From positions 62,001-126,000 of the forward strand of contig NZ_MPDK01000005.1 in NCBI RefSeq assembly GCF_003144315.1: 64,000 nt of DNA, given 5' to 3'. Positions 58,784 through 64,000 of the stretch are shown here, in pieces (position 1 is the stretch's first letter; each line of letters begins with the position of its first letter). This DNA comes from Sulfoacidibacillus thermotolerans (GTDB lineage: Bacteria; Bacillota; Bacilli; Alicyclobacillales; SLC66). The position numbers were made by a program, and so were the translations under genes. The notes beneath the pieces were generated by a model. The model was given only the letters and a program-made list of their open reading frames with translations. It was not told where the DNA came from and searched no databases.

Positions 58784-58809
58784 GGGCGCTCAAAATGGGC
58801 GCCCTTTTT
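58784..58809 (+). terminator. Intrinsic terminator after the M19 dipeptidase gene
   Basis: GGGCGC (58784-58789) pairs with GCGCCC (58799-58804), followed by TTTTT (58805-58809). The possible start codon of the next small ORF (58795) lies in the loop. Confidence 0.85.
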
Positions 58810-59004
58810 CGTGTCCGAAGCATCCCTTTTCGCATACGATGTGATGACTGTGGGCGTGGGCGAGAAGGAGAAGCGGTTGTACTCTCACCAAAAGAGCGCG
58901 ATTGGCATACTGATGAAAGTACAGAAATCGGGCTGGACTTTTCTCACGGTTTTGTTCTCGCCCAACTGAAACGATGCACTAATCCAGAGGAGGTCACAGC
59001 GTGA
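58795..59004 (+). CDS. Possible small CxxC protein upstream of cotE
   Basis: This frame encodes up to 69 residues, MGALFRVRSIPFRIRCDDCG and further, with a CxxC pair (residues 16-19), one later Cys, and an acidic C-terminal half. Codon choice looks like that of neighbouring genes and the stop overlaps the cotE GTG/ATG region (GTGATG), suggesting coupling. The start is uncertain: ATG 58795 has AGGTGG upstream but sits inside a terminator hairpin, so a shorter form using another codon or a pseudogene remnant are possible. A CATACGAT at 58833-58840 resembles a SigE -10 element but I see no matching -35. No family recognised. Confidence 0.4.
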   Translation: MGALFRVRSIPFRIRCDDCGRGREGEAVVLSPKERDWHTDESTEIGLDFSHGFVLAQLKRCTNPEEVTA

Positions 59005-59525
59005 TGCTCGCAAAAGATACCGGATGTCGCGAGATCATCACTAGCGCCGTATGTGGCAAAGGGAGCAAATATGCTCAGTCCACGTATACCATTCGTCCTG
59101 CGAATCGACCCACGACGATTGGCGGTTGCTGGGTGATGAATCATTCCTGCGAAGCCACATTGGCAGGAGATACGATTGAAGTCCATGGACGATTTGATAT
59201 TAACGTATGGTATTCATACAACGGCAACAGTGAAACGGCGGTTGCCAAGGATACAGTGCCTTACGTTGAACACATCGCCCTGCAAGATCTAGATCCCCAC
59301 TGCTTTCATGACGATCTGGCCGTAACTGTAAAAATGGTTCAGCAACCGAATTGCCTAGATGCAACCATCGTGGATGGCGGTGCAGAAATTGCTGTACGCG
59401 TGGAACTCGAATTAGCTGTTGAGGTGGTTGGCCGTACGAAAATCTGGGTGTTGACGTGTGAGCCTACCGATAAAAAGGAAAGTTTCGAAGATGAAAGTTC
59501 ACTAGAGGATGACTCTCGTTTGTAG
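59004..59525 (+). CDS. cotE: Outer spore coat morphogenetic protein CotE
   Basis: CotE directs assembly of the outer coat on the forespore surface. The 173-residue protein matches Bacillus CotE along its length: REIITSAVCGKGSKYAQSTY, GCWVMNHSCEATLAGDTIEV, GRFDINVWYSYNGNSET and KMVQQPNCLDATIVDGG, with an acidic C-terminal tail (about 155-173). ATG 59004 or GTG 59001 is the start; AGAGGAGGT (58986-58994) suits both. In B. subtilis cotE follows ymcA and precedes mutS; here amidoligase-type genes follow after a strong terminator. Confidence 0.95.
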   Translation: MLAKDTGCREIITSAVCGKGSKYAQSTYTIRPANRPTTIGGCWVMNHSCEATLAGDTIEVHGRFDINVWYSYNGNSETAVAKDTVPYVEHIALQDLDPHCFHDDLAVTVKMVQQPNCLDATIVDGGAEIAVRVELELAVEVVGRTKIWVLTCEPTDKKESFEDESSLEDDSRL

Positions 59526-59557
59526 ATCACCCGCACATCCATGGTTTATCAACTTGC

Positions 59558-59579
59558 GGGGCGCAGTGCGCCCCTTTTT
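59558..59579 (+). terminator. Strong intrinsic terminator after cotE
   Basis: GGGGCGC (59558-59564) and GCGCCCC (59568-59574) form a seven-pair all-GC stem with an AGT loop, followed by TTTTT (59575-59579). The next gene starts 18 bases later, leaving no room for a promoter after the terminator. Confidence 0.95.
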
Positions 59580-59596
59580 GTGTGAGGTGCGGTCTG

Positions 59597-60970
59597 ATGG
59601 AACGATTCTCGAGAAAAAACAGGAGTAACGCAAAAGCACGGTCAAGGCGTTTGAATATAAGGCCAGGGGAATTAGCGAAACGATCGAATTTACAAGCGAT
59701 CGCATTTGGTTTGCGTTCCGTCACTGTGGATGCGGACGCCTTGTTGCGCCCTGCTTTTGCGAAAAAGGCAGAGCGTTTCTTGCGTTTACCTCCGTATCGC
59801 ATTCACGCGAAATGGGAAGAGGGTACACTGCGATTCGGGCCTAGTATTGCGGTCTATGCACTTCCAGGCAAAAGTAGTGCCTTTGGAGCGCAAACTCAAT
59901 TGTTCAAAGAGATGGCGCTACTTGCAAAGAAGCAGGGGATTGATCTATTTGTCTTAACTCCAGGACATCTGCAGTATGAACAGAGACAGTCTTTTGGCTA
60001 TCGCTATCATTCTAAGCAGCGCAAATGGCGCATGGAAGTTTGTCCATGGCCAGATTTTGTTTGGCGTCGCACTGTCTATCGTCCTTTGCGTTTACAGAAT
60101 CTTATGGATGTAGATGAAAAATTACTTGGTCAGACTTCTGTAGTTGGAACATTGCCGCGCGATCAGAGTGAAAAGTGGATCTTACATGTGCTTTTGTCGC
60201 AATTTCCAAGTATGTTTCCGTTTCTGTTACCGACTTTGCTTGTGCAAACACCGCATGATCTTGTCAATGCCGTCCGCCAGTTAGGAGATGTCTATTTAAA
60301 ACCTGTTCGCGGTACACAGGGTCAGCAGATTGTGCGTATTGCTTCACTAGCTTCTGGATATGTGGTACAGCGTGCGCAAGGACGCTTAGTCCACAATGCA
60401 CAAGGAGAAATTTTAGCGACAGATTATGATCTTCAGAGTCGTTTTGGCCGCTTGGCAGTTACTTCTCCTTTTATCGCACAGCGCACCGTGGATATGATGC
60501 GCACGATCTACGACGAACCGTTTGATATGCGCTATTTAATACAAGCTTCAATAGAAAATGGCGGGAATCCAATCTGTACAGGCATTGTGGCACGCGTCGC
60601 GCAAAGCGAAGCGATTACGACAAATCTTCATACTGGTGCGGTGCCCTTTCGCTTGAGTGAGTTGCAAGATCGCATTCCCCCGCGTTTACTCCCTTTCTTT
60701 CAGCAGGCTGTAGAACGAGGTAAACAGGCTGCTTTGTCAGCTTTTTCTGCGGTGTCCACACAACATAAAGAATTGGCGGAACTTGGGGTAGATATCGCAT
60801 TTGACCGCAATGGGAGAGTTTTTGTTTTGGAAGTGAATCCATGTCCTGGTCGTCAAATGTTTCGGCGTATTGATCCACAAATCAGGCGTTTATCACTTCA
60901 GCGGATTCTTGAATATGCTGTGTTTAGCACCGGATTTTTGCGCAGCGTGAAAGGGGCTGACCCGAGGTGA
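59597..60970 (+). CDS. YheC/YheD-type ATP-grasp protein with basic N-terminal extension
   Basis: ATP-grasp enzymes join a carboxylate to an amine or thiol through an acyl phosphate. ATG 59597 has GAGGTG seven bases upstream; the 457-residue protein begins with a strongly basic stretch (about 1-30, Arg/Lys-rich). The C-terminal half has the ATP-grasp blocks: YLKPVRGTQGQQIVRI (233-248), RTVDM and FDMRYLIQ (296-316), TNLHTGA (342-348), and the metal-binding GVDIAFDRNGRVFVLEVNP (397-415). B. subtilis YheC and YheD are sporulation proteins located at the forespore. It overlaps the next gene in GTGA. Confidence 0.88.
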   Translation: MERFSRKNRSNAKARSRRLNIRPGELAKRSNLQAIAFGLRSVTVDADALLRPAFAKKAERFLRLPPYRIHAKWEEGTLRFGPSIAVYALPGKSSAFGAQTQLFKEMALLAKKQGIDLFVLTPGHLQYEQRQSFGYRYHSKQRKWRMEVCPWPDFVWRRTVYRPLRLQNLMDVDEKLLGQTSVVGTLPRDQSEKWILHVLLSQFPSMFPFLLPTLLVQTPHDLVNAVRQLGDVYLKPVRGTQGQQIVRIASLASGYVVQRAQGRLVHNAQGEILATDYDLQSRFGRLAVTSPFIAQRTVDMMRTIYDEPFDMRYLIQASIENGGNPICTGIVARVAQSEAITTNLHTGAVPFRLSELQDRIPPRLLPFFQQAVERGKQAALSAFSAVSTQHKELAELGVDIAFDRNGRVFVLEVNPCPGRQMFRRIDPQIRRLSLQRILEYAVFSTGFLRSVKGADPR

Positions 60971-62121
60971 TATCACAATCGCCCGCATCGCTGTGTGGAG
61001 TAGCGCGCGAGGAACGCGTTCCGCTCATTGGCATTATGGCGAGGCCGCACGCTGTCAATGGGATTTTTCAAGGAAAACAAGGGCCGCTGTTATTGCGTTA
61101 TTTAGAGGCAGCGGCTCGGGAAAATGCTTTTGCGTGCGTGTTTGATCCAGTTGATCTCGATGTGGAACGTCAGCGATTGCGCGGTTATGTGCTTAGCAAA
61201 CGGACAATTGCAGGTGAGCGTCGCGTTGAGTTTTTGGATTTAGGGATTCCACTTGTCATCTATGATCAGATCGCATCGCGACGCTATGATCGCTCAAAAT
61301 CCTGCACTGCAGCGCGTGAATATTTAAAGCAGACTTCTGTCATTTTTAATGATGGATATTTTGACAAATGGGAAGTGCACACCTGGTTAGGAGCTTATGC
61401 GCGGTTGCGTCCGCATTTGCCACACACTGCACTCATGACAAGCCAAGATACGTTGCGTATGTTTTTACACGCGCATGAGACTGTGTTTGTAAAGCCGATT
61501 CACGGCAGTTTGGGAATTGGAATTGTGCATATTGAACAGAGCGGTGAGTGCTATGAAGCTGTGTTGCGCACGAAGCAAGGCTTACTTCATGCGGGTGTGA
61601 AGTGTGACGCAAAATCATTGTATCAACACTTTAAACCGCGCTTTCGGCGGGCATTACACATTGTGCAAGAAGGGATTCCACTTGCTCGATGGGATGGGCG
61701 ACCGTTTGATATTCGCTTATTGATGCAAAAGAATCACAAAGGACAATGGAAGCGAACAAAGGTGTACCTTCGAGTAGCAGCAAAAGGGGATTTCACTTCC
61801 AATTTGACAACAGGGGGGCAAGCACTCCCACTTTCAGCGCTTGAGGAAGAATCGGGATTGAATGTAACAAAACTGAAACGAGAAATTTTGCAATTAGAGA
61901 AGTTAATTCCTGCATGTATTGAGGCACAATCTGGTCGAATGCTGGGTGAGATGGGCATCGATCTTGGCGTGAGTCAAACGGGGCAGATTTATGTAATTGA
62001 AGTGAATTCAAAACCTTGGAAAACAGCGATGACTCTCTCAGGTTCTGAACAGCTTGTCGATTTGTCATTCCTGCGACCGATTCGCTTCGCGCTTTGGCTT
62101 GCGAGTGCCAGACAGAGGTGA
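60967..62121 (+). CDS. YheC/YheD-type ATP-grasp protein, second paralogue
   Basis: The 384-residue protein has an N-terminal recognition domain with IYDQIASRRYD (98-108), the family equivalent of YNRIPTRKAE, and an ATP-grasp domain: VFVKPIHGSLGIGI (173-186), VQEGIPLARWDGRPFDIRLL (233-252), DFTSNLTTGG (275-284), GEMGIDLGVSQTGQIYVIEV (327-346) with the metal ligands Glu/Asn in EVNSKP. All catalytic blocks seem present, so it should be active. The GTG start overlaps the stop of the preceding paralogue, so both are translated together. The substrates are unknown; a spore-coat role is inferred from cotE nearby. Confidence 0.9.
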   Translation: MISQSPASLCGVAREERVPLIGIMARPHAVNGIFQGKQGPLLLRYLEAAARENAFACVFDPVDLDVERQRLRGYVLSKRTIAGERRVEFLDLGIPLVIYDQIASRRYDRSKSCTAAREYLKQTSVIFNDGYFDKWEVHTWLGAYARLRPHLPHTALMTSQDTLRMFLHAHETVFVKPIHGSLGIGIVHIEQSGECYEAVLRTKQGLLHAGVKCDAKSLYQHFKPRFRRALHIVQEGIPLARWDGRPFDIRLLMQKNHKGQWKRTKVYLRVAAKGDFTSNLTTGGQALPLSALEEESGLNVTKLKREILQLEKLIPACIEAQSGRMLGEMGIDLGVSQTGQIYVIEVNSKPWKTAMTLSGSEQLVDLSFLRPIRFALWLASARQR

Positions 62122-62139
62122 AGGGAGGCGCCGTGCATT

Positions 62140-63624
62140 GTGACATACTATTTGCTCCACAGCGGTCAAATGTCAGCAGAGCGTTTGGCCGCAGAAGTGC
62201 CAAGATTAGTAGCGACAGAGGAACTGCGATACGTAGGGCCAGAAGATGTAGTCATCCGTTTTGGGAACACAGAAGATCCTGATCGGGGCAGATGGACGAT
62301 TAACCGTCGAGAGTCCTTACTTGTCGCTGACTCGCGGCGCGCATTGTTAAAGACGTTGCGTAGAGCTGGGGTACATTGTCCGCGATTTACCAATCGTGAT
62401 GAGGAAGCGGAAACGCGGAATCAACTGATTCGGCATTATCGTGTGCCTGTTTTTAATTTGCGCGCATTGACTTGCTTTCGGACAGAAGGAAGAATGGTTT
62501 GGCTGAGCAAGCGCATCAATCAGATTCAAGACCACTTTTCAGAAGTAGGACTAGAGGCGGATGAAGAGACGCGCAAAGTTAGCTTGCTTGCTGTACGTGC
62601 GATGCATGCGGTGGGCTTAGAATTTGGCCTTGTAAGTATTGGCATTGGGCAAAAAGGACGTCCAATTGTCCTTGATATTTCAGCAACCCCAGTATGTAAA
62701 GGACGGTTATTGCGTCTGTTTGCTACAGCGATTGAAGATTTTATTGCTGTCGATGAGCAAATTTCACAGGGCGTGGAAGAAAAGATTTTGCTAGGGACAG
62801 ATTTAGAATTTATGTTGCGCTCGCGTCAAGGCAAGTTAATTCCCGCTTCTCGCTATTTTCCAATGCGGGGTAAAGTGGGATGCGATGATCGAACGCTAGC
62901 TGGTAATCGGGCACTTCGCCCACTCGCAGAAATTCGTCCGCAACCTGCAGAAACTCCCGAAGTGTTGTGTAAAAATATTGAATTGGCTTTGCGTGAAGCA
63001 CAAAAATTCGCTCCTGCAGCGCACCCCGAATGGGTGGCGGGGAGTGCACCCTTTGAACATTTTCCAATAGGCGGCCATCTCCATTTTAGTGGAGTTCCAT
63101 ATACGGCGCGCATTGTCAATTTGCTTGATGCTTACGTAGGGATGCCTCTGATGTTGATTGAAGATCCAATGACTGCAACAAGAAGAAGACCTAAATACGG
63201 ATTTTTAGGGGATATTCGCCATAAATCATATGGTGGGTTTGAGTATCGTACGCCTGCCAGTTTTTTGGTGGATCCCAATATTGCGCTTGGGGCACTCGCA
63301 TTAGCTTATGTGATCGCGCATCATCACGCAGAGTTGCCCTATATTGAACTGCATGATGCCAGTCGTTTACGCGCATTTTATCGCAATGATCGCGATTTTT
63401 TATTGCCGATTGCTAAAGAAGTGTATGCAAATATAAAGCAGACTTCTAGCTATTTGCCGTATCGTGAAGCGATCGACTTAATTTTTGCAATGATTCAAAG
63501 TGACGAGGTTTGGGATGAGTCCGTTGATATTCGCAAAGCTTGGCAGTTGCCGATTCCAATCAAAGCGTCTGGGAAAAAGAAGATCCAGTCCTCTGTACAG
63601 GCGAGAGGGGGAGTAAGGGCATGA
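62140..63624 (+). CDS. ATP-grasp-like region fused to GCS-like COOH-NH2 ligase (phiEco32 type 2)
   Basis: The 494-residue protein combines two regions. Residues 1-210 look like a divergent ATP-grasp module: VVIRFGNTEDPD (37-48), RVPVFNLRAL (101-110) and VLDISATP (177-184), with no evident full set of ATP-grasp catalytic residues. Residues of about 215-450 match glutamate-cysteine-ligase-fold amidoligases: GTDLEFML (219-226), LAEIRPQP (262-269), IGGHLHFSG (310-318) and GGFEYRTP (365-372), which hold the Glu/His/Arg metal and nucleotide ligands. The prediction is ATP-dependent COOH-NH2 ligation. GTG 62140 has GGGAGG upstream at long spacing; the stop overlaps the next start in ATGA. Confidence 0.85.
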   Translation: MTYYLLHSGQMSAERLAAEVPRLVATEELRYVGPEDVVIRFGNTEDPDRGRWTINRRESLLVADSRRALLKTLRRAGVHCPRFTNRDEEAETRNQLIRHYRVPVFNLRALTCFRTEGRMVWLSKRINQIQDHFSEVGLEADEETRKVSLLAVRAMHAVGLEFGLVSIGIGQKGRPIVLDISATPVCKGRLLRLFATAIEDFIAVDEQISQGVEEKILLGTDLEFMLRSRQGKLIPASRYFPMRGKVGCDDRTLAGNRALRPLAEIRPQPAETPEVLCKNIELALREAQKFAPAAHPEWVAGSAPFEHFPIGGHLHFSGVPYTARIVNLLDAYVGMPLMLIEDPMTATRRRPKYGFLGDIRHKSYGGFEYRTPASFLVDPNIALGALALAYVIAHHHAELPYIELHDASRLRAFYRNDRDFLLPIAKEVYANIKQTSSYLPYREAIDLIFAMIQSDEVWDESVDIRKAWQLPIPIKASGKKKIQSSVQARGGVRA

Positions 63625-64000
63625 CCAGAAGCCCATTATTTACACTGGCAGTTTTAACAGGGCAGCAAAACGTTCGTTCTCCATACATTCGGGCTCTACT
63701 ACGCACCGCACAAGTGCAAGGAATCAAAGCGTATCCACTCACGCCTAGTCAATTGTTTTTGTCATCTAATGAAGAATCTTCGTTGCATGTGGTCTACAAC
63801 CGTATTCCCACCCGCAAAGCAGAGGCATCGCTTGAGGTAAGACGGGCCAAGCAGTGGTTGCAACAACGTGGAATTCCACTTTTTAATCAGCGATTTTTCA
63901 ATAAGCGCGAGGTGGATCGCGTTTTGCGCAAAGATGAAGAAATAAGAAAAATATTACCTGCTACCATGAGTGATTGGGATACAGCACGCGCACTTTCTTG
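63621..64000 (+). CDS. YheC/YheD-type ATP-grasp protein, third paralogue, cut by window end
   Basis: About 126 residues are visible before the right edge. They form the N-terminal domain of YheC/YheD proteins: TLAVLTGQQNVRSPYIRALL (8-27), then VVYNRIPTRKAEAS (57-70), a segment reading GIPLFNQRFFNKREVDRVL, and ILPATMSDWD near the end, where the ATP-grasp lid begins. This spacing is the family pattern. ATG 63621 overlaps the previous stop. The ATP-grasp catalytic core lies beyond the window, so activity cannot be judged. Confidence 0.85.
   Translation, partial: MTRSPLFTLAVLTGQQNVRSPYIRALLRTAQVQGIKAYPLTPSQLFLSSNEESSLHVVYNRIPTRKAEASLEVRRAKQWLQQRGIPLFNQRFFNKREVDRVLRKDEEIRKILPATMSDWDTARALS

Follow-up and report, generated by a model that had tools for sequence, protein, structure and literature searches.

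A candidate late mother-cell amide-ligation cluster beside cotE in Sulfoacidibacillus thermotolerans

Introduction

What might a run of ligase genes be doing directly behind the gene for a spore-coat morphogen? In Sulfoacidibacillus thermotolerans, cotE is followed by genes for YheC/D-type ATP-grasp proteins (YheCD) and for a COOH-NH2 ligase of the PF14395 family, here labelled LIG, and it may be asked when these enzymes would be made, how many ligation steps they would carry out and what they would act on. To our knowledge, no product is known for YheC/YheD and the COOH-NH2 ligase, although both are widespread and linked to the coat. In 2009 Iyer et al. reportedly predicted coat modification from neighbourhoods of CotE, YheCD and COOH-NH2 ligase, and they and the Pfam entries citing them are said to give YheCD and the ligase a role in modifying the coat or the cell wall. 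The neighbourhoods reported by Iyer et al. hold the same families in the same setting as here; the cluster type is already known, and the present cluster is a further case of the predicted coat-linked amide-ligase kind. What is added to that prediction are promoters, YheCD lineages, the fold of the LIG N-domain, an intervening element and counts.

In Bacillus subtilis, yheC and yheD belong to the sigmaE regulon and are raised by SpoIIID (PMC517825), and YheD surrounds the forespore as a shell, for which SpoIVA is needed (PMC7911427). A sequence-only reading of the present locus had given forespore localisation and dependence on coat morphogens for both proteins; this holds for YheD, whereas no report of forespore localisation of YheC was found in the literature. 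The B. subtilis proteins belong to the same PF14398 family as the four YheCD proteins described below, all of which lie well above its cut-off. The B. subtilis genome, included as a control, has no LIG, whereas here the genes stand beside cotE in a coupled run with LIG. A literature search found no experimental paper on the chemistry of YheCD or LIG.

Layout of the locus

The window is the whole stretch analysed, 64,000 nucleotides at positions 62001-126000 of contig C81 in a 2.87 Mb draft genome, which groups with Alicyclobacillus-type loci at the family or order level; all features placed within it below are on the + strand. The outer spore coat morphogen gene cotE (59004..59525; 173 aa with an acidic C-terminal tail; PF10628, E 6e-58, 195.7 bits against a cut-off of 25) lies in its canonical rny-ymdB / miaB-mutS neighbourhood. 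Five ligase genes follow: YheCD-1 (59597..60970, 457 aa, with a possible GTG start at 59582; PF14398 E 7e-46), YheCD-2 (60967..62121, 384 aa; E 5e-70), LIG (62140..63624, 494 aa; PF14395 E 2e-92 on residues 218-470), YheCD-3 (63621..64000, running past the window end to 349 aa in the contig; E 2e-66 for the full protein) and YheCD-4, which lies beyond the window end at what would be 64670-65731 (E 4e-51 for the full protein). The sequence-only reading of cotE, three YheC/D genes and a COOH-NH2 ligase was borne out in its coordinates, overlaps, 18-base gap and Pfam matches; its count of four ligase genes is right for the window, and the set proves larger by the fifth gene, YheCD-4.

YheCD-1 and YheCD-2 overlap by 4 bases, an 18-base gap separates YheCD-2 from LIG, and overlaps of 4 bases and 1 base follow between LIG and YheCD-3 and between YheCD-3 and YheCD-4; by these junctions the five ligase genes look translationally coupled. 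Between cotE and YheCD-1 there are 56-71 bases, which hold a terminator-like hairpin, GGGGCGCAGTGCGCCCC-TTTTT (59558..59574), GC-rich with a T tail and conserved in four close relatives. Because of this hairpin, a single transcript with even expression of cotE and the ligases is improbable. The proposal of one operon therefore stands for the coupled ligase genes and is doubtful as a single simple operon that includes cotE. Another terminator-like hairpin, conserved in close relatives, lies 3' of the upstream dipeptidase gene (58784..58804).

In the contig, YheCD-4 is followed by 6S RNA, miaB, mutS and mutL; the 6S RNA (RF00013, 85 bits; L007:15780-15964) sits between the ligase operon and miaB. 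Two more YheCD genes occur elsewhere in the host genome. On contig C45 of the same genome (L009:6829-10794), a YheCD-like gene adjoins a HipA-like kinase-like gene and two glycosyltransferase-like genes; this group may be a second coat cluster.

Families and predicted folds of the ligases

YheCD-1 to YheCD-4 score 157, 236, 225 and 174 bits to PF14398 against a curated cut-off of 26.8, and all four keep the ATP-grasp catalytic residues (K, Q, D-R, E, D, E, N), which are near-invariant within each clade. In an AlphaFold2 model (mean pLDDT 93.1), YheCD-2 is nearest to ArgX, RimK and LysX, at Z about 22 (22.5) over 263-276 residues, with the ATP-grasp residues kept and an identity of just 16-24%; glutathione synthase and D-cycloserine synthetase come close behind RimK. 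YheCD-2 falls far below the cut-off of the RimK family itself (NCBIfam TIGR00768, 23.7 bits against 143.4), and it is the predicted fold that would suggest a RimK-like working. RimK, ArgX and LysX add amino acids to protein tails, and acidic tails are the substrates of RimK, ArgX/LysX and TTLL enzymes. However, RimK, glutathione synthase and Ddl have one fold in common, so the acceptor is not fixed by the fold.

LIG scores 309.7 bits to PF14395 (cut-off 25). Its predicted model (mean pLDDT 93.4) agrees with the earlier description of the protein as a fusion: by this model it consists of a YbdK-like ligase domain preceded by a cut-down ATP-grasp domain of RimK-like fold. The C-terminal catalytic domain (62791..63549), which carries the PF14395 match, has the fold of YbdK and glutamate-cysteine ligases: residues 214-469 match YbdK at Z 18.1 (237 residues to 1tt4) and PafA/Dop at Z about 15.6, with 9-16% identity and no Pfam match to the families of these enzymes. 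D221, E223, E264, R266, H313, H315, E368 and R370 are among the residues invariant in 61 LIG sequences. LIG differs from YbdK, the glutamate-cysteine ligases and PafA/Dop in being fused to the cut-down ATP-grasp domain. This N-terminal domain (62140..62787; phrog_2599 match at residues 13-92) matches RimK/ArgX with residues 1-207, at Z 16 over about 190 residues. It lacks the ATP-binding subdomain with the catalytic lysine expected of an active ATP-grasp enzyme: nothing equivalent to the strands of YheCD-2 at 172-235, which carry the invariant K176, lies between residues 92 and 98 of LIG, in the sequence as in the predicted models. A PDB sequence search with LIG and YheCD-3 gave no useful match. 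A phage origin of LIG was considered on one weak phage match and was dropped.

Separate lineages of YheCD

Are the YheCD genes interchangeable copies? In a tree of 266 YheCD proteins, the YheCD-1 clade (47 loci, support 0.945) and the YheCD-2 clade (47 loci, support 1.0) consist solely of genes from the respective operon position, and YheCD-3 and YheCD-4 form separate lineages. The position-3 genes fall into groups of 14 loci (support 1.0) and 20 loci (0.934), all from position 3, and one of 23 that includes three from another position; the one downstream YheCD copy of Alicyclobacillus groups with YheCD-4. Operon position is thus matched by separate clades in the tree, cleanly for YheCD-1 and YheCD-2. 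Since these position-specific clades keep their catalytic residues intact, they support several distinct ligation steps, which the sequence-only reading had derived from three paralogues; the steps are to be counted on four YheCD proteins and LIG rather than on three and one, and four or five of them would be expected here.

Conservation and genomic contexts

The genus, family and order together provided 41 genomes, of which 39 have LIG; the other two are 73% and 65% complete. The order DPEP-CotE-Y-Y-LIG-Y(-Y), where Y is YheCD, is kept in nearly all loci of the taxonomic order, with CotE more distant from the ligases in L098, L108 and L110, and the recurrent full context is CotE-Y-Y-LIG-Y(-Y)-miaB-mutS. 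To judge from these loci, the recurrence is far beyond chance. Other arrangements were also found: CotE-LIG-MutS-MutL with no YheCD in between (Aneurinibacillus, Shimazuella, Hazenella, a Brevibacillus MAG and four G022-type genomes of family f2), CotE-CotE-Y-Y-Y-Y-LIG in Thermincola-type loci, and Y-LIG without CotE in Syntrophomonas-type loci. LIG and YheCD are fused into a single protein in two genomes (L181:8364-11138, L190:8885-11836).

Among 398 Bacillota genomes, LIG occurs in 53 and CotE in 52, with both in 31 (Fisher p 1.7e-18), and YheCD occurs in 118 and in all 53 with LIG (Fisher p 3e-33), both p values being inflated by kinship. By gene coordinates, LIG and CotE lie within 8 kb of each other in 28 of the 31 genomes with both, in several contexts; the conserved adjacency proposed as a check of the coat link in spore formers is thus found. 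SpoIVA is present in 336 of the 398 genomes and in 52 of the 53 with LIG, the exception being 61% complete; by sequence, the cluster is restricted to spore formers. No CotE match is detectable in 22 of the 53 LIG genomes.

CotE was not seen in clostridia by Galperin et al. 2012 (PMC3533761). Beyond Bacilli, in Thermincola-type genomes among others, CotE-family proteins (E about 1e-34 to 1e-24) are encoded beside LIG, often as tandem pairs (L142:3116-4327, L138:2720-4022, L118:7674-8384). In the JA6.bin5 MAG, LIG is broken at two contig ends (L082 and L116) that overlap at residues 264-337, either an assembly break or a mixed population.

Promoters and time of expression

When would the cluster be expressed? 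An alignment of close relatives shows two conserved blocks 5' of cotE. One is a sigmaK-like promoter, CACC-N16-CATACTGAT (58886..58914), whose own -10 is an imperfect CATAnnnTA. CACC-N14-18-CATA occurs 5' of cotE in 48 of 61 loci against 1.6 expected, a count that is partly after the fact, as the pattern was first seen in the alignment and then counted. A gap of 14-16 bases, such as the N16 of the cotE promoter, agrees with that given for sigmaK promoters by Eichenberger et al. (PMC517825). A stricter pattern, ACn-N14-17-CATAnnnTR, precedes the first ligase gene in 19 of 29 CotE-less clusters (1.1 expected), mostly near -58; this set had no part in finding the pattern, and its loci are related to each other. 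Where CotE is present and the first ligase gene has its own leader, the stricter pattern was found in 18 of 73 loci (0.9 expected), and the control genes MutS, MiaB, Rny, DPEP, YmdB and MutL gave 0-3 matches to the sigmaK-like pattern. These comparisons are good evidence that the ligase cluster would be used late, in the mother cell. In the window, no sigmaK-like site of their own was found before YheCD-1 or the other ligases, and because of this we infer that transcription passes through the cotE-YheCD-1 hairpin into them.

The conserved CATACGATG box (58833..58841), seen in the alignment of close relatives, is a possible second -10 element, for which no clear -35 was found in the host genome. 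Matches to the sigmaE consensus 5' of cotE showed nothing consistent, and the idea of the cotE leader as a structured RNA was given up with no Rfam match above cut-off and a folding z of -1.4. Between the dipeptidase gene and cotE (window 58831-58960), conserved blocks extend beyond the promoter and an inverted repeat, GAGAA...TTCTC, is present, with no RNA family match.

A LIG gene split by a recombinase element

Two species of the same genus, represented by genomes G311 and G354 (loci L198:4307-13637 and L199:2201-12747), each have a single LIG gene, which is interrupted at the same site, the GFPIGGHIHF motif, by elements of 5347 and 5210 bases, respectively. Both elements carry a large serine recombinase and an epimerase, antisense to LIG, and that of G354 an additional NlpC-like gene; the core repeats are CCTATTGGTG and AAAAGGATTCCCTA, and the direct repeats measure 10 and 14 bases. 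When the element is removed exactly in silico, each species regains an uninterrupted LIG reading frame of about 465 aa, so that both loci hold a recombinase element at a direct repeat that interrupts the gene and leaves its frame recoverable. The joined genes are 66.8% identical without stops, with a pN/pS of 0.26 at near-saturated synonymous sites. A third genome of that family (n=3), 72% complete, has no LIG.

Likewise, skin (sigK), SPbeta (spsM; PMC4191935), gin (gerE; PMC5595907) and yin (yabG; PMC10747680) are serine-recombinase elements that split a sporulation gene at a short direct repeat, and their exact removal restores the frame, as computed here for LIG. The LIG element differs in its host gene and in its size of just about 5.2-5.3 kb. 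By analogy, it would be excised during sporulation.

Acceptor and alternative explanations

On balance, the cluster probably, though by no means securely, encodes a pathway of the late mother cell in which amino acids are attached through amide bonds to a component of the spore coat. The coat and mother-cell part is supported by the cotE adjacency, the sigmaK-like promoters and the recombinase element in LIG. LIG and the four YheCD ligases would act in turn, each adding a particular residue, and the acceptor would be an acidic protein or peptide, as with RimK, ArgX/LysX and the tubulin ligases; the RimK-like N-domain of LIG, unable to bind ATP, may hold that acceptor. Families, catalytic residues, YheCD lineages, sigmaK-like promoters and the spore-former restriction can be read from the genomes themselves, and from them we infer the acceptor, the donors, the order of action and the holding role of the N-domain. 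This evidence places YheCD and LIG in the late mother-cell programme and defines the gene set; if the pathway is real, the spore coat bears a non-ribosomal amide modification that is absent from coat models. Several observations count against this reading: acidic CotE tails also occur without LIG, 22 of the 53 LIG genomes are CotE-less, the search for a substrate gene recurring beside the clusters turned up none (the neighbours were mostly housekeeping genes or antisense frames), a hairpin separates cotE from the ligases, the window's ligases have no sigmaK-like site of their own, and the fold is not acceptor-specific.

Does the pathway serve CotE alone, lengthening its acidic C-terminal tail and thereby governing how the meshwork assembles? 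The adjacency in 28 of 31 genomes, the long acidic tails, about 40% acidic beside LIG, and the taste of RimK, ArgX/LysX and TTLL enzymes for such tails speak for this. Residues added to the tail could matter for assembly, because it is this tail that governs the Ca2+-dependent assembly of the meshwork in B. cereus (PMC11980541). Yet the tail failed as a discriminator of genomes with and without LIG, Bacillus-type CotE without LIG being equally acidic; the final CotE residues are variable; and Syntrophomonas and other LIG genomes have no CotE. With 22 of 53 LIG genomes lacking a match, CotE cannot, by gene content, be the sole substrate, and we regard its dedicated role as unlikely. The earlier proposal of peptide tags on coat proteins such as CotE thus survives as a coat-linked amide-ligation pathway and fails for CotE as a general substrate, its acidic tail being one candidate acceptor in the host and not the only one generally. 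The same independence of LIG and YheCD from CotE would suit another product, a non-ribosomal peptide or polymer that the five enzymes assemble in free form in the mother cell and that is then deposited in the coat with no protein as acceptor, as would the likeness of the LIG C-domain to YbdK and the glutamate-cysteine ligases, enzymes that couple amino acids in free form, and the closeness of glutathione synthase and D-cycloserine synthetase to YheCD-2. We consider such a product conceivable but doubtful: the best fold matches of YheCD-2 are the protein-tail ligases ArgX, RimK and LysX, genes for transporters, racemases or carriers do not recur around the cluster, and the forespore shell of YheD (PMC7911427) suits action on coat proteins. 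A last alternative, that the ligases are enzymes of vegetative metabolism which owe their place in the old rny-ymdB-cotE-miaB-mutS region to common descent, without a functional link, seems very improbable; the flanking rny, ymdB, miaB, mutS and mutL are indeed conserved housekeeping genes, but in Thermincola-type and other loci cotE and LIG adjoin at a distance from mutS, CotE-less clusters have sigmaK-like promoters before the ligases, and two species tolerate a recombinase element in LIG.

Returning to the amide-linking pathway, a more specific form of it can be put forward tentatively as a coat counterpart of tubulin-type tail polymodification: sigmaK-driven, position-specialised ligases and LIG might furnish coat proteins with a short, defined chain held by amide bonds and so tune the assembly of the coat, and in one genus LIG would stay split until a DNA rearrangement, confined to the mother cell, rebuilds it. 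If so, the split gene would mark the ligation step as important.

An AstE/AspA-like hydrolase gene (PF24827), its product apparently secreted, adjoins LIG/YheCD clusters in 22 loci of at least four lineages, mostly convergent with LIG (for example L119:7742-8812, L123:11261-12046 and L188:12846-13718), and this hydrolase might trim the amide product.
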